Source: Bdellovibrionales bacterium (GTDB taxonomy: Bacteria; Bdellovibrionota; Bdellovibrionia; Bdellovibrionales; UBA1609). Taken from it: a stretch of 45,330 bases of DNA. Position 1 is the stretch's first letter, and each line of letters begins with the position of its first letter. The DNA lies in assembly GCA_020630675.1 (NCBI GenBank), contig JAHDIR010000021.1:1-45330 (forward strand). The letters run 5' to 3'. Position numbers and translations under genes: made by a program. This document shows positions 28,703 to 38,015 of this stretch, one piece after another. The notes beneath the pieces were generated by a model. That model was given only the letters and a program-made list of their open reading frames with translations. It did not search any database and had not been told where the DNA came from.

Positions 28703-28867
28703 AAGATCTCCTAAATAGTGGGGGTTGAGAAAATATAATTTAAAAACTGTTATTTTGTATTTTCCGCAAGTAAACTCTTTGAATAATCGCTTGCAGCCAG
28801 CTAGTACTCTAGATTTAAATGCAAGAGATGTCTATATTAATTTGTTTATAATCAATTGGAAGTGAAT

Positions 28868-30100
28868 ATGGCCGTAGAGTTTACACCGTCTCAGTTTAAT
28901 GCCTTAGCAGCCCTTTGCTCAGAGCAAAATGTTTTTTTAACAGGCGAGGCTGGGAGTGGAAAAAGTTTCTTAATTGAACACTACATGAAAGATCATGACA
29001 AAAAAACCTTTCCAATTTTAGCAAGTACAGGAGCTGCAGCCATTATTATTGGTGGCCGAACCTTTCATAGTTTTATGGGGCTTGGAATTATGGAAGGGGG
29101 AGTGGACAAAACTGTAGAGCGCGCCCTTAAAGACAAGAGAGTCGTTCGTCGCTTAAAAAAAATCAAGGGGTTTGTTTTAGATGAAGTGTCCATGATTTCT
29201 CAAGATACTTTTTTAGCGGCAGAAAGAATATGTCGTCTTGCTCGTGGTAAACAAATTGAACCCTGGGGTGGTCTGCGTGTTATAGCTGTTGGTGATTTTG
29301 CCCAGCTTCCTCCGGTTCAAAAAAGTGGACCACGAAAATGGATATTTCAAAGTGACGTCTGGGAGCACTCAAACTTTAGGGTTGTGCAATTAAAACAAAA
29401 TATGAGAACCAATCATGGTAATTTTTTAGAAGTACTTAATAGTATTCGTCGCGGTGAAGTGAGTGAGCAAGTGCGCTCTTTTTTAGATCAAAGATGTATA
29501 GACCCTGGTGAAGACTTTGAAGGTACGAGGTTGTTTCCAAGAAGGTTTCAAGCTGAAAAATTTAATGAATTACGATTATTAAAAATATCAAAGCCCTCTT
29601 TATTTTTTGAGTCTATTTATTCTGGGCAAAAAAGATTTGTAGATATTTTAAAAAAAGTTTCTCCTTTGAAGGAAAAAATTGAAATTAAAGAAGGGGCTCT
29701 AATTATGTTGAAAACCAATGACCCAAAACAGCGATGGGTGAATGGTAGTACTGGCGTTGTTTTAGGGCAGTCTGATGGTAGTTTAAGAGTTGAACTTTTA
29801 AGTGGGAGAACTGTGAATATTGAAAAAGTGACTCTGTCTCTCTATAATGCCGAGGGAGATGTTATGGCTAGCGTAACCAACTATCCCATTGAATTGGCTT
29901 ATGCGACAACCATACATAAATCTCAAGGAATGACATTGGACACTTTGTTTGTTGACTTATCCAACTTATGGGAGCCAGGGCAAGCTTATGTAGCTTTGAG
30001 CCGGGTAGTGAGTCCAGAGAAGTTATATATTAAGTCTTGGACGGCTTCTTCGATTAAAGCTGATGCTAAAGTGAATGATTGGTACGAAGCAAGTTTATAA
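28868..30100 (+). CDS. PIF1-like superfamily 1 DNA helicase
   Basis: 410 residues from ATG 28868, where GGAAG lies five bases upstream; a TTG at 28856 is also in frame. Walker A is GEAGSGKS (26-33), followed by ASTGAAA (motif Ia), Walker B VLDEVSMIS, GDFAQLPPV (motif III), LKQNMRT (IV), and the PIF1/RecD-type ending ATTIHKSQGMTLD and AYVALSRV (V, VI). It is a single-strand translocase unwinding DNA 5' to 3' by family precedent. It is shorter than eukaryotic PIF1 and lacks extra domains. It is divergent from the rhodanese operon. Confidence 0.88.
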   Translation: MAVEFTPSQFNALAALCSEQNVFLTGEAGSGKSFLIEHYMKDHDKKTFPILASTGAAAIIIGGRTFHSFMGLGIMEGGVDKTVERALKDKRVVRRLKKIKGFVLDEVSMISQDTFLAAERICRLARGKQIEPWGGLRVIAVGDFAQLPPVQKSGPRKWIFQSDVWEHSNFRVVQLKQNMRTNHGNFLEVLNSIRRGEVSEQVRSFLDQRCIDPGEDFEGTRLFPRRFQAEKFNELRLLKISKPSLFFESIYSGQKRFVDILKKVSPLKEKIEIKEGALIMLKTNDPKQRWVNGSTGVVLGQSDGSLRVELLSGRTVNIEKVTLSLYNAEGDVMASVTNYPIELAYATTIHKSQGMTLDTLFVDLSNLWEPGQAYVALSRVVSPEKLYIKSWTASSIKADAKVNDWYEASL

Positions 30101-30971: not shown

Positions 30972-32021
30972 ATGGAAACAGTCATGAACAATCAAGCTTT
31001 ATCTGAAGAAAACCCTGTGGGTTTAAATGGCATGGAGTTTATTGAATACAGCACTAAAAATGCAGAAGAAATGGAAAAACTTTTTTCTGTTTTTAAATTA
31101 AAAAAAGTGGGTGATCACAAATCTAAAAACATCAGTTTATATAAACAAAACGACGTTCACTTTATTTTAAATAAAGAGCAAGGTTCATTTGCCGATGCTT
31201 TTCAAAATAGTCATGGCCCTTCTATTTGTGCCACGGGTTTTAGAGTTTTCGATGCTGACAAAGCTTTTGAGGCTGCCGTTAAAAGAGGGGCTAAGCCTTA
31301 TGAAGGAAATGGTCATAGCTTTAAAGCAATTTACGGCATAGGAGACTCCCTTGTTTATTTTATTGATAAAAAAGGGGAGCAAAAAATTTATGAGGAAGAT
31401 TTCAAACTCATCGATAACCCAGAAAATGAAGGCTGTGGTTTAACTTTTGTAGATCATATGACAAATAATGTTCCTGCTGGTGATATGGACAAATGGTGTT
31501 CGTTTTATGAAGATATTTTTAATTTTAAAGAAGTTCGTTTCTTTGACATTCAAGGAGAGCAAACTGGCCTAGTGTCAAAAGTAATGATGTCTCCATGTAG
31601 ACGTATCATTGTTCCTATTAATGAACCGACAGACAACAAATCTCAAATTCAAGAGTATTTGGATGAATACAAGGGCTCAGGTATTCAGCACTTAGCAATG
31701 CGTACTGATGACATTTGTAAAACTGTAGCTCAACTCAGAGAAAATGGTGTTCAGTTTTTAGACGTTCCTGACACTTACTACGAAACTTTAAACGAACGTG
31801 TACCTGGCGTCACAGAAGACTTAGAAGAGCTAAAAAAATTAAAAGTTTTAGTCGACGGTGACGAGAAGGGATATTTATTACAAATTTTTACTAAGAATTT
31901 GATAGGCCCTATTTTCTTTGAAATTATTCAACGTAAAGGTCATAAAGGTTTTGGAGAAGGAAACTTTCAAGCTTTATTTGAAGCTATTGAAGAAGACCAA
32001 AGACGCCGAGGGTATCTATAA
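30972..32021 (+). CDS. hpd: 4-hydroxyphenylpyruvate dioxygenase
   Basis: 349 residues. It converts 4-hydroxyphenylpyruvate to homogentisate in the cytosol, using Fe(II) and O2. The iron ligands are in place: His162 in FVDHMTNN, His240 in IQHLAMRTDD and Glu317 in IFFEIIQRKGHKGFGEGNF, the C-terminal helix typical of the family. Two vicinal-oxygen-chelate halves are visible (20-140 and 155-330). AGGAGG just upstream gives a strong ribosome binding site. It heads an operon with homogentisate dioxygenase, starting 2 bp after its stop, and ribD. Confidence 0.95.
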   Translation: METVMNNQALSEENPVGLNGMEFIEYSTKNAEEMEKLFSVFKLKKVGDHKSKNISLYKQNDVHFILNKEQGSFADAFQNSHGPSICATGFRVFDADKAFEAAVKRGAKPYEGNGHSFKAIYGIGDSLVYFIDKKGEQKIYEEDFKLIDNPENEGCGLTFVDHMTNNVPAGDMDKWCSFYEDIFNFKEVRFFDIQGEQTGLVSKVMMSPCRRIIVPINEPTDNKSQIQEYLDEYKGSGIQHLAMRTDDICKTVAQLRENGVQFLDVPDTYYETLNERVPGVTEDLEELKKLKVLVDGDEKGYLLQIFTKNLIGPIFFEIIQRKGHKGFGEGNFQALFEAIEEDQRRRGYL

Positions 32022-32022
32022 A

Positions 32023-33120
32023 ATGCATCATTACAGCCAAGGTAAATCGACTAAGCAGGCCCATAAGGCTATTCCTGAGGGCTTTTATGAAGAAGAGCAA
32101 GGGCTGAAAGGTTTCTTTGGGCCAGTATCACATTTGATTAAACGAAAACCAAGCACTCGTTGGAGTCAGATTGAAGGGCCGTTAAGGCCTCACTTGTTTG
32201 ATTTAGTGAAACTTGAGTTGAAACCAGAGTGGCAAAGACTCTTATATAATCATCAGCTCACGATCTCTATGGCTCAGCATTCCTCCGGCTTAAGTGACCA
32301 TGCTTTTAAAAACGCTGATGGCGACACCATATATTTTTGTCATCAAGGGCAGGGGCATTTACTCACGGAATATGGTCTGCTTGAATACAAAAAAGGTAGC
32401 TATATAATTATACCTAAATGTATTCCTCATCAGTTCTTTGTTGAAAAAGCCACTCAGTTTTTAGTGATAGAAAATAAGTCGAGCCATTACGAAGAACCTG
32501 AAAGAGGAATGGTTGGACGCCATGCTGTTTATGATATTAATGCCATTGGTAAACCCAATTTAGAACTGCTGGATCAATTTATTGAAAAGCATAAAATTGA
32601 AACTACAAAAGTTAAAATTAAACATAACAATGAATTCACTCATTTTATGTACAATGAAACTATTTTTGATGTCGTAGGTTGGAAGGGCGACCTTTTTCCT
32701 TTTACTCTTCATGTTGATGATATGATGCCTTTAATGAGTCATCGATCTCACTTGCCTCCAAGTGCTCACACCACTTTTGTTGCTCGTGACTTTGTGGTGT
32801 GCACATTTTTACCCCGCCCTTTAGAAGAAGATCACGACGCTTTGAAGGTTCCTTTTTATCATCAAAATATTGATTATGATGAAGTGCTGTTTTATCACGA
32901 TGGTGATTTCTTCAGCCGCGATAACCTTCATGCCGGTATGATGACTTTTCACCCGGCGGGTTTTCCCCACGGGCCACATCCTAAAGCCGTTAATAATGTT
33001 AAAAGTAAAACACATACAGATGAGACAGCAGTGATGATTGATTCTAGGCAGCCATTAAAAAAAGATCCAATTTTAGATGGTGTTGAGTTCAACGAATACT
33101 GGAAGTCATGGCAAACCTAG
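32023..33120 (+). CDS. hmgA: Homogentisate 1,2-dioxygenase (short form)
   Basis: 365 residues from ATG 32023; an open frame reaches back to 31918 inside hpd but the family N-terminus (MHHYSQGK) and adjacency fix the start. It opens the homogentisate ring to maleylacetoacetate. Cupin iron-binding residues are in PFYHQNIDYDEV (His280, Glu287) and HPAGFPHGPHP (His near 310). It is shorter than the 430-residue animal and Pseudomonas enzymes, matching a short bacterial branch. It starts one base after hpd and its stop overlaps ribD by 13 bp. No maleylacetoacetate isomerase or fumarylacetoacetase is in this window. Confidence 0.9.
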   Translation: MHHYSQGKSTKQAHKAIPEGFYEEEQGLKGFFGPVSHLIKRKPSTRWSQIEGPLRPHLFDLVKLELKPEWQRLLYNHQLTISMAQHSSGLSDHAFKNADGDTIYFCHQGQGHLLTEYGLLEYKKGSYIIIPKCIPHQFFVEKATQFLVIENKSSHYEEPERGMVGRHAVYDINAIGKPNLELLDQFIEKHKIETTKVKIKHNNEFTHFMYNETIFDVVGWKGDLFPFTLHVDDMMPLMSHRSHLPPSAHTTFVARDFVVCTFLPRPLEEDHDALKVPFYHQNIDYDEVLFYHDGDFFSRDNLHAGMMTFHPAGFPHGPHPKAVNNVKSKTHTDETAVMIDSRQPLKKDPILDGVEFNEYWKSWQT

Positions 33121-34259
33121 AGGCTAAGCTCGGAGAAAAATATTCTGATTTTCGTGCGATGCTTTTGGCTTATCACTTAGCTGAGCAAGGTGTTGGCTTT
33201 GTTGAGCCAAACCCTCCAGTGGGTTGTGTAATATTAGATGCTTCAAATCATTTAATTGGTTTTGGTTATCATCAAGCTTACGGCCAGGGCCATGCCGAGG
33301 TTCAGGCCGTTCAATCTGTGGTTGATAGGTCTTTGTTAAAAAATAGCCGTGTATTTGTCACCCTTGAGCCTTGTGGACATCAAGGAAAAACTCCCCCTTG
33401 TTCTGATATGCTGGCTAAGCACAAAATTGGTGAACTGATTTATGCGGTTTCAGACCCAAGCCCTTTATTTCACCATCGTGGCTTGGAAGTTTTAAGGCAG
33501 GCAGGAGTAAATATTCAGCAGTTTAATGAAAGTGCTGATCTTTTAAATAAGATGCATCGTTTAGTTGATGTTTATATGCATAACTTGAACCATAAAACTT
33601 CTTTTGTATCACAAAAATTTGCCAGCAGCTTAGATGGGAAAATTGCCCTTAAAAATGGGCAGAGTCAGTGGATCACAGGAAAAGAAAGTCGACGTTTCAC
33701 TCATTTTTTACGTGCGAGTCATGACGCAATTTTAGTGGGAGTGAAAACACTATTGACGGATGATCCAAGCCTTAACATTCGGCACGAGCGTTTTACTGGA
33801 AAAAAAAATAAAGTGATTATTTTGGACCCATCTTTTAAATCCAATAAATTTCTTAAAACCTCCAAACTTGGTCAGGAACATTCTCCAGAAAACATATTCA
33901 TAGCCTGTCATAAAGACGTAATACCTAAAGTTAACATTGAAGGTTTTAATTATATACCTTGTTTGAGCGCAGATGATGGGCTGTTTGTATGGAACGAGTT
34001 ACTTAAAGCGACCAAAGCTTTGGGGATTTCTTCTATTTTGGTGGAAGGTGGCGCTTGCACTCATTCGAGTTTGCTAGCCCAGAAAGCATCAAATCGTATC
34101 TATGCATTTATTGCTCCTAGTATTATTGGTGGCCAGGCTGGTGTCGGTTGGAGTGATCATTTTCTCGTAACAAATTTGAACGAAAAGTTAGAGTTAGCTC
34201 CTCCAGAAATTACTAAGTTAGGCTCCGACATTTTGTTTAAAACTTATAGACTTTCGTAG
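33108..34259 (+). CDS. ribD: Bifunctional riboflavin deaminase/reductase
   Basis: 383 residues. The N-terminal deaminase (10-150) has GHAEVQA with His62 and Glu64 plus zinc cysteines 89 and 98 in VTLEPCGHQGKTPPC. The C-terminal reductase (155-383) has FASSLDGKIAL, the WITGKESR motif and ILVEGGACTHSS. Together they perform the second and third steps of riboflavin synthesis. The start overlaps hmgA by 13 bp, placing ribD in a tyrosine-breakdown operon, away from other rib genes, which is unusual. The start is set by the family N-terminus; GGAAG lies very close upstream. Confidence 0.92.
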   Translation: MANLEAKLGEKYSDFRAMLLAYHLAEQGVGFVEPNPPVGCVILDASNHLIGFGYHQAYGQGHAEVQAVQSVVDRSLLKNSRVFVTLEPCGHQGKTPPCSDMLAKHKIGELIYAVSDPSPLFHHRGLEVLRQAGVNIQQFNESADLLNKMHRLVDVYMHNLNHKTSFVSQKFASSLDGKIALKNGQSQWITGKESRRFTHFLRASHDAILVGVKTLLTDDPSLNIRHERFTGKKNKVIILDPSFKSNKFLKTSKLGQEHSPENIFIACHKDVIPKVNIEGFNYIPCLSADDGLFVWNELLKATKALGISSILVEGGACTHSSLLAQKASNRIYAFIAPSIIGGQAGVGWSDHFLVTNLNEKLELAPPEITKLGSDILFKTYRLS

Positions 34260-34352
34260 TAACTTCACTTTATGTTTACCGATGAAAGTCCTGCTTTTTT
34301 ATAAATAAAGATATTTCTTTATGGTTAAGTAGTTTTGACCGAAAAGACTATT

Positions 34353-36290
34353 ATGGCAAAGAGTCAAAAAATTCTCATCATTGATGATGATAGTACATTA
34401 GCTAAAGCAATCTCTGAACTTTTCACAAGAAAAGGTTTTGAGACAATCATTGAGTCCAAAGCGGATAAGGCTTTGAGTTTAATGCGTGTTCAAAAGATTG
34501 ATGGAGTGATTATTGATTGCATGATACCCGGAATGAACGGTGTTGATTTAGGACAAAAGCTAAGAGAAGACTTAAATTTTCAAGACACAATGGTTCTTAT
34601 AAGTGGAATTTTTAAAGATAAAAATTTTGCAAAAGCTTCTCTTCGAAAAACAAATGCTATTGATTTTATGTTTAAGCCCTTAGACTTAGAAAAGCTTATA
34701 GGGCATTTTCATGCCGATGAAAACACGTCCGAGGAAGGCTCTGCTGGCAGTTGGTATGGACAACTGGTCGAAGAAAAACTAGAGGCAGCTAATGCTCTGG
34801 CTGTTGTTAAAGACATCTCTAATATTAATTTCAAAGAAATTCCACTGCTTATTTCCATGCTTGAAAAACATAAAATGAGTGTTTTTATGGAGCTTACTTC
34901 AGGTAAAGACATTTTTTCAATTCAGGTTTTAAAAGGAAAAATTTTAAATGTAGGTTCAAATAAAACAAACCTTTATCACAAAGAATATATTCTTCGAGAA
35001 AACTTATGCACTTCTGATTTAATGGACAAATATATAAGCGACAATGATAACATTTTATCTGAACTTGTTGAAAAAGCATTGCTGAGCCCTCACTTTGAAG
35101 ATCGTATACGGGCCAGTGTTGCCAATAGTGTTTTAAAAAATATTTACCTATCTGATACTGATTTTAGCATAACAATTGATGTTGATAGTTCAGTACCAAG
35201 CCCAACCCCTTTGGTGCTGAAAAATATTTCTTATACTCTTCATGAAGTGGCTGAAACCAAATTAGATCCACTATTTTTAAAAAGTTTCTCATCCTATTTA
35301 AAAGATCGAACTTTTACTTTGGCAAGGTCTTTTGATGCAGATATGCAGTTAAAATCTCTTCCTCTCATTGCGAGCAATAGTAAATTTTTGGAGGAGTTAA
35401 AAAATAAGTTATCACTTGCTGCTATTATGGAAAGAAGTGATAGCTTAAGGCTTTTGAAAGTCTTATTTCTTTTGCAAAGTATGGGACATGTGCACATTAA
35501 AGAATCGGTGATGTCTTTAGATGATTTACCAAAAGTAGAGCAAAGATTTCAGGGAATGTTGGATGGTATCAAAGGTAAAAGCCCGGAAGAGATATTTAAC
35601 TTTTTAGGGGTCGATGATGCCAGATCTATGTTTGTTGCTCCATTTTTTAAAAATTTTGCTAAAATTAATCACCCAGATAAATTACCACAAATCGCTCCTG
35701 ATAGTCTTAGAAAGCTAAATCAACAAGTGTTTTCGATTGTGTCTGAAGCCCATGGAATTTTAACTGATCCCGAAAAAAGAAAAGCCTATGTTGAAGAAGT
35801 AAATAGTAAAAAAACGGAAGTAATATTAAAGGCAGATGCCTTAAAAGAAAAAGGACAGTCTTTACTTAAAAAATCTCAATACAAAGAGGCATTACCGTTT
35901 TTTGAAGAATCAAAAAGTCTCCATCAAGACAATAGAACAACACTCTATTATCATTGGTGTTATATGAAAATTCATAAAAAAATTGAAGATAAGAACATAA
36001 GGTTAAATATATATAATGAGTTAGTGGCCTTTCCTATTGAAGAAAAAAGAGATGAACTTTTTTGCTTGGTCATGGGGATTTTTAAGAAAAGATCCAAAGC
36101 CTACGAAGAGGCTATTGCTGAATTTAAAAAATCTTTAGGCTTTAACGAAAACTTTTTACCGGCTCGACGTGAACTTATGCAGCTGCAGTCGCAACTAAAA
36201 GCTAGAAAATCTAAAACAGATGTCACAAATATTTTTGGTGCAGACTTAGGCACAGTTGTTTCTAATATTTTTAAGAAAAAAGCCAATTAA
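34353..36290 (+). CDS. Response-regulator receiver/DUF4388-like/J-domain/TPR fusion protein
   Basis: 645 residues from ATG 34353 (a TTG at 34335 is also in frame). Residues 1-118 are a receiver domain: ILIIDDDS, IDCMIPGMNG with the phospho-acceptor Asp, VLISGIF and the lysine in DFMFKPL. Residues about 145-225 (IPLLISMLEKHKMSVFMELTSG..IQVLKGKILNVG) look like a DUF4388/PATAN domain. Residues about 415-480 are a J-domain: HPD motif at His440 (NHPDK) and ending AHGILTDPEKRKAY. The C-terminus (490-600) has TPR-like helices. It is probably a signalling adapter that recruits Hsp70 (DnaK) when phosphorylated. No kinase gene is adjacent. It converges on phenylalanine hydroxylase. Confidence 0.78.
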   Translation: MAKSQKILIIDDDSTLAKAISELFTRKGFETIIESKADKALSLMRVQKIDGVIIDCMIPGMNGVDLGQKLREDLNFQDTMVLISGIFKDKNFAKASLRKTNAIDFMFKPLDLEKLIGHFHADENTSEEGSAGSWYGQLVEEKLEAANALAVVKDISNINFKEIPLLISMLEKHKMSVFMELTSGKDIFSIQVLKGKILNVGSNKTNLYHKEYILRENLCTSDLMDKYISDNDNILSELVEKALLSPHFEDRIRASVANSVLKNIYLSDTDFSITIDVDSSVPSPTPLVLKNISYTLHEVAETKLDPLFLKSFSSYLKDRTFTLARSFDADMQLKSLPLIASNSKFLEELKNKLSLAAIMERSDSLRLLKVLFLLQSMGHVHIKESVMSLDDLPKVEQRFQGMLDGIKGKSPEEIFNFLGVDDARSMFVAPFFKNFAKINHPDKLPQIAPDSLRKLNQQVFSIVSEAHGILTDPEKRKAYVEEVNSKKTEVILKADALKEKGQSLLKKSQYKEALPFFEESKSLHQDNRTTLYYHWCYMKIHKKIEDKNIRLNIYNELVAFPIEEKRDELFCLVMGIFKKRSKAYEEAIAEFKKSLGFNENFLPARRELMQLQSQLKARKSKTDVTNIFGADLGTVVSNIFKKKAN

Positions 36291-36293
36291 GAA

Positions 36294-38015
36294 TTAAATA
36301 ATTTGATGATGTCTTTCGATTCCTTTAGAAATACAAACGGCAACTTCAGCGCTGTGTTTTTTATTTTTTTCGAGTTGTGCCAAAAGCTGCTCTTTAACTT
36401 TTTCAGAACCATTTATATGTGAGGAAAGTTCAAGTAATTCAATTCCAGCTAACCACTCTTGAGGAAACTGCTCGATGTACTGATTGGCAGCTGAGGCTAG
36501 AGAATCAAGGTGAGTATTTTGACTATCGCGCATATCTCTGATTTTTTGATAAAAACAAAAGATCTTATGGTCCTGTTCTGAAATATTAACCTCAGGGATG
36601 ACTTTGGCGGGGTAGTCATACATAGTTATATAACTTAGGCTGTCAGCAGGCCCTCGAAATACACTGGTGACAGTGCTTCCAACGGCCATGTCAAAATCAC
36701 CCCAAGAAGGTTCAAAGTAAACATTATCTTTATAGGTCACTGTGCAATCAGTGAACTTAATCAGAATGAGCTGCTTGTTATTAAAAACAAGGTCTGCAAT
36801 ACGTCCGTTAACATTGAATCCAGAGTCATATTTTAAATGGCAATTTTCATGGAGCTGAACCCCTAATGCTTCTAACTCAATTGTATTAAGTTCAGATAAG
36901 CATTGATTATTAATGGTGCCTAAGGGGCAGCTATAGCCATGATTGTGTTGTTCGACCCCTTGACCGGGAAGTTGTTGGCCTTCTACACAAATTTGTGTTG
37001 GGTTAGAAATCTTAAAAAATAAAGTTTTATTTTGATCTTTGATTTGTTCCGCCACTTTACCAGAAACTTGAACGCCTGAGTTGAGTTCAATTGTGTTAAT
37101 GGTTCTAGAGACAATTGCTTTTTCAACACTTTCTGCTCCCCCAAGGGTGAAAGCCATTGATAGGCTAAGATCTTTTAAAACCTTAGTGAGATGAGCAAAA
37201 TCAGGAGTCACAAAAAGTTGAGGCTGTTGCTCTGTTATATCGTACTCGTAGTTGATACATTCAACAGATAAAGCTATTTTTTTAACACGAGAACTTAAGC
37301 TATTTTCCGACTCACCTAAAGAGGAAAGCAGGCCGGCTCCAAAAATTTTAGGGTTATCCAGTGAGCCAATGAGGCCATATTCGGCGGTCCACCAATTCAT
37401 TCGTCCAAGTAAAGAGGCTTCTGATGGAGATCCCATATTATTGGAAACTTGATGAAGTTTTTCTTCACACTTTGCAATCTCGGCTTCAGTGGAGCTTGGG
37501 TGTTCTTTTATATCGCTCAGCTCTCGAATAGCTTCGTAAAGCTTAATATCTTCTTTTTTGACAATCGCTTTATTAGCCACTTCAGCATAGTTTTTTAAGT
37601 ACTGAGCAAACTCTGGGTCGGCGATTATAGGAGCATGACCTGCGGCCTCATGAATAATATCAGGAGCAGGAGTGTAGAGAATATGGTCAAAAGTACGTAT
37701 ACCACTGGCAATAGGTAAATAACCTAAAGACTGAAACTCCATAAAGGCGCCAGGAGGAATAAAACCACTGACAGGGATAGCTGACCATCCAAAGCGGTTT
37801 AACTTTTTGTTGATGTCTTGAATTTTAGGAATGGAGTCGATTTGAATGCCAGTTTTTTCTAATCCATCGACATAACTAGGATGAGCATGAGTAGAAAGGT
37901 AGCTTTTAAGTTGTCGCATAGAAAAACGCCAGACAGCATGATCACGAGCTGAGTAACTTTCAACATCTTGTACAACCACATATTTTTGCAAATGTTTAGG
38001 AACTTCGTTCGTCAT
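36294..38015 (-). CDS. phhA: Phenylalanine 4-monooxygenase, long form
   Basis: 573 residues. It hydroxylates phenylalanine to tyrosine with a pterin cofactor and Fe(II). The pterin-dependent aromatic hydroxylase core occupies about 20-330: GFIPPGAFMEFQ, RTFDHILYTPAPDIIHEAAGHAP (iron ligands His122 and His127) and the tryptophan-flanked MNWWTAEYGLIG with the third ligand glutamate. Enzymes such as those of Pseudomonas end near residue 280; this one continues for about 240 residues with beta-rich stretches and a helical end, as in some Bacillus and Bacteroidetes enzymes. It feeds tyrosine to the hpd-hmgA operon nearby. ATG-proximal ribosome binding site AGAAGG. Confidence 0.9.
   Translation of the reverse strand: MTNEVPKHLQKYVVVQDVESYSARDHAVWRFSMRQLKSYLSTHAHPSYVDGLEKTGIQIDSIPKIQDINKKLNRFGWSAIPVSGFIPPGAFMEFQSLGYLPIASGIRTFDHILYTPAPDIIHEAAGHAPIIADPEFAQYLKNYAEVANKAIVKKEDIKLYEAIRELSDIKEHPSSTEAEIAKCEEKLHQVSNNMGSPSEASLLGRMNWWTAEYGLIGSLDNPKIFGAGLLSSLGESENSLSSRVKKIALSVECINYEYDITEQQPQLFVTPDFAHLTKVLKDLSLSMAFTLGGAESVEKAIVSRTINTIELNSGVQVSGKVAEQIKDQNKTLFFKISNPTQICVEGQQLPGQGVEQHNHGYSCPLGTINNQCLSELNTIELEALGVQLHENCHLKYDSGFNVNGRIADLVFNNKQLILIKFTDCTVTYKDNVYFEPSWGDFDMAVGSTVTSVFRGPADSLSYITMYDYPAKVIPEVNISEQDHKIFCFYQKIRDMRDSQNTHLDSLASAANQYIEQFPQEWLAGIELLELSSHINGSEKVKEQLLAQLEKNKKHSAEVAVCISKGIERHHQII

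Follow-up and report, generated by a model that had tools for sequence, protein, structure and literature searches.

The gene at 34353-36290 on the + strand of the contig analysed here (45,330 nucleotides in full, hereafter the window) is best read as one for a response-regulator scaffold that carries a co-chaperone module. Its product joins a receiver (REC), a PATAN (DUF4388) region, a winged-helix-like segment, a J-domain, TPR and a basic tail in a single chain of 645 aa, and represents the A member of two paralogues described below. The frame opens with ATG at 34353 and its stop codon ends at 36290; an alternative in-frame TTG start at 34335 would lengthen the product to 651 aa. According to the interpretation that we put forward tentatively, giving it a little less than an even chance, the protein acts as a scaffold under the control of phosphorylation and directs DnaK to a client bound by its TPR and PATAN parts. 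A receiver, a DUF4388-like region, a J-domain and TPR in one chain had already been proposed by a sequence-only reading of this DNA, and this order is borne out by aligned relatives and by AlphaFold. When 23 family members were scanned singly with Pfam, REC was registered in 23/23, DnaJ and DUF4388 in 21/23 each (best E 9.5e-16 and 1.2e-9, respectively) and TPR_2 in 20/23. The full-chain AlphaFold model, built from the window protein and 45 relatives from named contigs, had a mean pLDDT of 87 and pTM of 0.54, and because of the latter value its domains are reliable as predicted and their mutual arrangement is not. Since the fold search with the full model was swamped by receivers, residues 140-492 were folded separately (pLDDT 90.5, pTM 0.73). 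Foldseek gave no match to this part with E below 0.5, and VIA-align found J-domains, the N-domain of XpsE and segments resembling winged helices, none of them reaching Z 8. Such moderate Z values outside REC, together with the weak scores of the window protein taken by itself, count against the proposed mechanism.

The receiver occupies residues 7-117 (34371-34703, + strand). Pfam REC matches the window protein alone with 62 bits (E 7e-17, cut-off 30.2), and PDB receivers match this part of the model at Z ~20. The acidic pocket (D12/D13), the phospho-acceptor D55 (34515-34517), S84 and K108 are all there, just as the sequence-only reading had it for the pocket and the acceptor, and by profile, fold and catalytic residues alike the protein is a response regulator. 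Positions D12, D55, S84 and K108 were compared in a deduplicated set of 79 relatives longer than 550 aa, outside which stand short fragments (for instance L154, L155 and L181) and L138 with its decayed J-domain. They read D, D, S, K in 77 proteins and D, D, T, K in one, and the last one has Y in the first position; catalytic residues are kept, therefore, in 78/79. Phosphorylation of the window protein by a cognate kinase is putative, a kinase gene being linked in relatives only.

For the PATAN region (residues 163-271, 34839-35165, + strand) the window protein alone scores 13.4 bits with DUF4388 (E 0.083, under the cut-off of 25), and a search of the window's genome with this model gave no match at E<=0.01. 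The assignment is made, consequently, by family, through the aligned relatives whose matches reach 1.2e-9, and from these profiles the region may be called PATAN. VIA-align pairs residues 185-258 with the N-domain of XpsE, an ATPase of type II secretion (2d28, Z 7.4), and AlphaFold places an alpha-helical insertion of four helices between the strands 196-202 and 271-277. This insert contains an S-P-H motif (residues 245-247, 35085-35093, + strand), which together with H-P-D makes up the sole invariant columns of the 353-residue stretch from PATAN to the J-domain in 33 sequences, the remainder of 46 rows from which one near-duplicate and 12 rows whose J-domain has decayed were removed beforehand. 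Residues 316-383 (35298-35501, + strand) are matched by 9o5d_C (Z 6.9), 7t3b_C (Z 6.1) and 6dgd_A (Z 5.1), and based on our reading of these chains and at such moderate Z the segment may be named winged-helix-like. The statement that residues 230-440 have no recognised fold does not hold, therefore: this stretch consists of the end of the PATAN region with its helical insert, the winged-helix-like segment (Z 5 to 7.4 for both) and a helix leading into the J-domain.

The J-domain spans residues of about 408-483 (35574-35801, + strand). With Pfam DnaJ the window protein alone gives 24.1 bits over 423-479 (E 4e-5, under the curated cut-off of 27.8), and in a six-frame search the same model gives 27.8 bits and is listed above the cut-off. 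When PDB was searched with a profile of the family over residues 140-492, J-domains came up at 8.5e-16, and VIA-align superimposes many J-domains over about 404-489 with Z up to 7.2. The HPD motif at residues 440-442 (35670-35678, + strand) lies between helices 425-439 and 450-471, J folds align across it, and so the HPD expected from the sequence sits in the helix II-III loop of a J fold. Judging by profile and HPD, this is a class C J-domain protein, i.e. one having the J-domain and neither G/F region, zinc finger nor DnaJ C-domain. In the aligned rows selected as above HPD is invariant wherever the J-domain is kept. The window's genome has one DnaK and three J-domain genes, and the canonical dnaJ adjoins dnaK elsewhere (C37). 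The window protein may bind this DnaK and stimulate its ATPase.

Next in the chain comes the TPR region, residues of about 494-620 (35832-36212, + strand), with TPR_1 at 494-527, TPR_8 at 578-600 and paired helices in the model; on the window protein alone TPR_1 scores 25.3 bits, near the cut-off. The last 15 residues (631-645, 36243-36287, + strand) form a basic tail aligned across the family, with D631 in >=90% of rows. This acidic-aromatic-basic segment is conserved family-wide after an unstructured link that is not, and may serve for docking or for contact with the membrane.

The same architecture is present in other Bdellovibrionota with conserved neighbours: 120/143 genomes of the class Bdellovibrionia match at 1e-6, and both paralogues stand in conserved gene clusters. 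A scan of named genome contigs for the conserved receiver motif gave 47 loci, most of them from Bdellovibrionota or its parts. The tally of 361/368 genomes obtained in a search of the whole phylum was rejected as a measure of family spread, being made up largely of ordinary J-domain proteins; nearly all its matches cover the J segment only, as judged from 13 genomes outside the class in which match positions were inspected. Among these 13, true relatives were found in family f28 only, as PATAN-J-TPR proteins without receiver at L219 and L235 (by Pfam) and at L218, L220 and L221, where a thioredoxin gene is adjacent in all three cases. Two further f28 proteins (L245:283-2616, by Pfam, and L231:718-2994) have the order REC-PATAN-J-TPR followed by a hydrophobic stretch and one more C-terminal domain. 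The architecture looks, therefore, older than the class. The f28 genomes G359-G363 are also unusually rich in J-domain matches, with 6-9 in each versus 1-5 in the other eight genomes searched.

Two paralogues, A (that of the window) and B, were distinguished by gene order at 68 distinct loci and by a tree of 79 proteins, on which this label changes twice; the exceptions are long-branch reduced genomes. Paralogue B adjoins mreC-PBP2-rodA, and A usually accompanies a CheA-like kinase, a STAS-like protein, CheY and/or a SpoIIE phosphatase. All neighbour counts given here for A and B are lower bounds, many contigs being short. Within 8 kb of B in 37 rows outside the reduced genomes there are rodA in 28, PBP2 in 26, f9 in 22, mreC in 20 and f3 in 31; Pfam names of these neighbours were checked at one locus (L072), and f9 is mreD by position only. 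In 23 of the same 37 rows a thioredoxin gene lies beside B on the opposite strand (for instance L072:6698-7075). Docking of thioredoxin to response regulators is reported in PMC9584953. No B paralogue was seen in the window's genome (G000), where the full-length query returned itself and receivers and where the J-domain genes are only those three.

For paralogue A, 39 rows were collected. In the 14 that have HPD and lie outside the window's genus and the reduced genomes, the genes found on A's own strand at a distance of no more than 8 kb were f2 (13/14), f16 (12/14), f1 (11/14) and f19 (11/14). The 19 rows of A without HPD have f1 in 19, f11 in 19 and f2 in 18, f2 being mostly divergent. According to Pfam, f2 is a PAS-Hpt-HATPase protein in CheA-like order, f11 is HAMP-SpoIIE and f16 is a CheY-like receiver. 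We rejected f1 as a firm STAS protein and call it STAS-like only, since its matches are too weak (2/19 members, best 0.011; the best PDB match is an anti-sigma factor antagonist at 0.038). Likewise f19 was rejected as an RsbW-like kinase and left unnamed: HATPase_c_2 matched 1/11 members, weakly (0.03), and nothing informative came from a PDB search. This conserved protein of ~290 aa without a confident Pfam match (L081:4157-5023 and 10 others) contains glycine-rich and N-box-like motifs that by eye suggest a GHKL ATPase.

In relatives the genes are ordered HPPD, homogentisate dioxygenase, ribD, f19, f1, f2, f16 and A; in the window and two genus-mates they run HPPD, homogentisate dioxygenase, ribD and A, so that the f19-f1-f2-f16 block is missing in 3/3 loci of this genus, in the window from the junction of ribD and A at 34260-34352. 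The earlier remark that no partner kinase lies nearby is true, then, of the window itself, and the reason is that the kinase block, present here in relatives, is missing between ribD and A in this genus; a linked kinase is absent only in this genus and in some reduced genomes. The genus has four genomes, of which one is 64% complete, and f1 was found in none of them versus 102/143 in the class, where f2-type kinases are registered in 91/143 genomes at 1e-60. That the window's genus keeps REC without a linked kinase is an argument against the proposed mechanism, and one may suppose that in this genus the protein has become a decaying orphan, whose input genes are gone and whose receiver is no longer phosphorylated. 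Besides the lost block and the lost f1, the long branch leading to the genus clade (1.07) agrees with such decay, which nevertheless seems very improbable, as all three genus proteins keep D12, D55, S84, K108 and HPD, and the window's genome retains an unlinked and shorter Hpt-HATPase relative of f2 (L168:7365-8807, contig C75, 278 bits). Its locus is without f1 or f16, and no receiver gene was recognised beside the kinase, which may, as an orphan kinase, act on the window protein. Under the scaffold mechanism the receiver in this genus would either take phosphate from another kinase, such as this one, or be an idle switch. Around A in the window there is a block of phenylalanine/tyrosine catabolism kept in the genus (30972-38015, neighbours named by Pfam: HPPD, homogentisate dioxygenase, RibD, the A gene and, convergent with it, a biopterin-dependent aromatic amino acid hydroxylase), and a PIF1-like helicase of 414 aa is found at 28856-30097.

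HPD is kept in 54/79 relatives (36/40 B and 18/39 A) and absent in 25/79. The absences include three B proteins from a single genus and the complete A clade of Bdellovibrionaceae type (18 rows), whose J segment is decayed. On a quick LG+G4 tree of the 79 proteins with J columns excluded, the state of HPD changes at least 6 times; long branches meet in this tree (L184 with L186), so that the figure is rough, and gain and loss are indistinguishable there. Because of these 25 proteins DnaK recruitment cannot be the whole function: about one relative in three has lost HPD, so that the core function can do without DnaK, which speaks against the mechanism. All 5 loci read in genus g44 encode an A-type protein with PATAN and TPR and with neither REC nor J. 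Such data would suit a REC-PATAN-TPR scaffold with PATAN/TPR binding to an envelope machine as its output, in which the J-domain is a mere spacer or a protein-binding helix bundle weakly or not at all tied to DnaK: REC, PATAN and TPR stay where HPD is lost, and in g44 PATAN and TPR persist even without REC and J. We regard this explanation as rather unlikely, however, since a spacer needs no HPD and the motif is unchanged in more than half of the proteins, nearly all of B among them, and in f28 relatives outside the class as well. The g44 protein adjoins f1 in four loci, and in L252 f1 is nearby on the other strand. No g44 genome (0/14) appears among the f2 matches at 1e-60; The joint absence of REC and f2 is in favour of the mechanism, and it is that of one clade and hence one event. 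In two g44 genomes (L249:6433-9399 and L251:618-3188) the PATAN-TPR frame continues past a membrane-helix-like stretch into a long C-terminal part, the open frames having 989 and 857 residues.

The combination of J and TPR in one chain is known also in human P58IPK/DNAJC3, whose J-domain came up for the J segment in both the fold and the sequence search; this eukaryotic co-chaperone differs from the window protein in having TPR before J and no receiver. By this likeness the family could serve general quality control, the receiver sensing a stress signal and TPR binding unfolded proteins broadly. Such a role is improbable, given that the two paralogues occupy two fixed non-chaperone loci and that the canonical dnaJ has its own place at dnaK.

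Under the scaffold mechanism that we propose, a CheA-like Hpt/HATPase kinase would phosphorylate D55. The changed state of the receiver may then alter the PATAN/winged-helix part through a conserved SGIFKDK face, a motif that is observed and for which this role is presumed. What PATAN and TPR hold would be a client or a machine of the cell envelope; by analogy with the PATAN regulators of cyanobacteria, a motor ATPase like that of type IV pili is possible. Finally, HPD of the J-domain would bring DnaK to this client and trigger its ATPase, so that remodelling takes place where and when the signal allows. The coupling of phosphorylation to DnaK recruitment supposed in the sequence-only reading stands, therefore, in part: receiver sites in 78/79 proteins, invariant HPD and S-P-H and the linked kinase with CheY are in its favour, and the 25/79 proteins without HPD are against it. 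The single DnaK of the window's genome with its three J-domain genes and the cyanobacterial precedent described below also favour the mechanism. Against it, none of the neighbours named at family loci was recognised as a pilus gene. PilT is found in 141/143 genomes of the class, and a pilus link by co-occurrence was set aside, this near-universal gene offering no contrast and speaking neither for nor against.

Published accounts of the cyanobacterial systems permit a closer comparison. The PATAN regulator PixG acts with PilB1/PilC (PMC12288463), PixG and PixE bind PilB1, and a TPR-bearing DnaJ3 works with DnaK1 at the type IV pilus motor (both PMC12288463, PMC9239167). PixG, PixE and PatA resemble the window protein in combining PATAN with a receiver and in signalling from a CheA-like kinase, and differ from it in the reversed order, PATAN being N-terminal in PatA and following REC here. 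According to PMC12288463 and PMC9239167, DnaJ3/DnaK1/GrpE is a dedicated Hsp70 system at the pilus motor, in which J and TPR share one protein as they do in the window; in contrast to the latter, no receiver or PATAN is mentioned for DnaJ3, and the likeness is one of domains. PATAN regulators and the J-TPR co-chaperone are separate proteins in cyanobacteria and fused in the window's family; fused domains commonly point to a shared pathway, and this may hold here. The cyanobacterial PATAN regulators are not known to have a J-domain or TPR. PilB binding by the window protein is putative. We hold it doubtful, yet worth stating, that the family is a one-chain fusion of the two cyanobacterial pilus-motor modules, in which phosphorylation of the receiver gates the site of Hsp70 action, i.e. 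a two-component system with chaperone output and two paralogous pathways. With the same doubt, A with its CheA-like kinase and partner-switching genes and B beside the rod-elongation genes would be these pathways, and loss of the chaperone arm in the Bdellovibrio lineage would be, no more probably, a natural experiment.

The output of most two-component systems is transcription, a second messenger or motor switching. If the family does wire a receiver to a J-domain, the action of Hsp70 would become an addressable output, and the fusion would link PATAN regulators with J-TPR co-chaperones, known from separate studies of the cyanobacterial pilus motor, and predict one shared pathway for them. 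Signal-controlled recruitment of the chaperone is testable because the gene of a likely kinase stands next door in many relatives. Each step may be approached, since most genomes of the class, those of the genetically workable Bdellovibrio among them, have the family, and since it offers natural variants without HPD or REC. As far as the partially covered literature shows, each domain and PATAN response regulators are known, and the J-TPR arm under a receiver and the two syntenic paralogues are new; the domain string may already stand in automatic databases. Searches for DUF4388 with DnaJ, or for Bdellovibrio with DnaJ, response regulator and TPR, found no paper in this partial coverage. A description of the whole architecture was not found there either, which does not show it to be unpublished; one mention of DUF4388 came up, in the context of nitrite reductase.

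TPR or PATAN proteins are described also in predatory relatives. Bd2492 of Bdellovibrio, a TPR protein of 40.5 kDa encoded by the first gene of the tamAB operon, is tied to MglA by experiment. Its identity with the family was rejected: family proteins at L106 and L144 have 642-652 aa and have SpoIIE, STAS-like and kinase genes as neighbours. MXAN_3211 and MXAN_4965 of Myxococcus are PATAN proteins tied to SgmX by co-occurrence, and this pair is compared with the window protein by the PATAN domain only.
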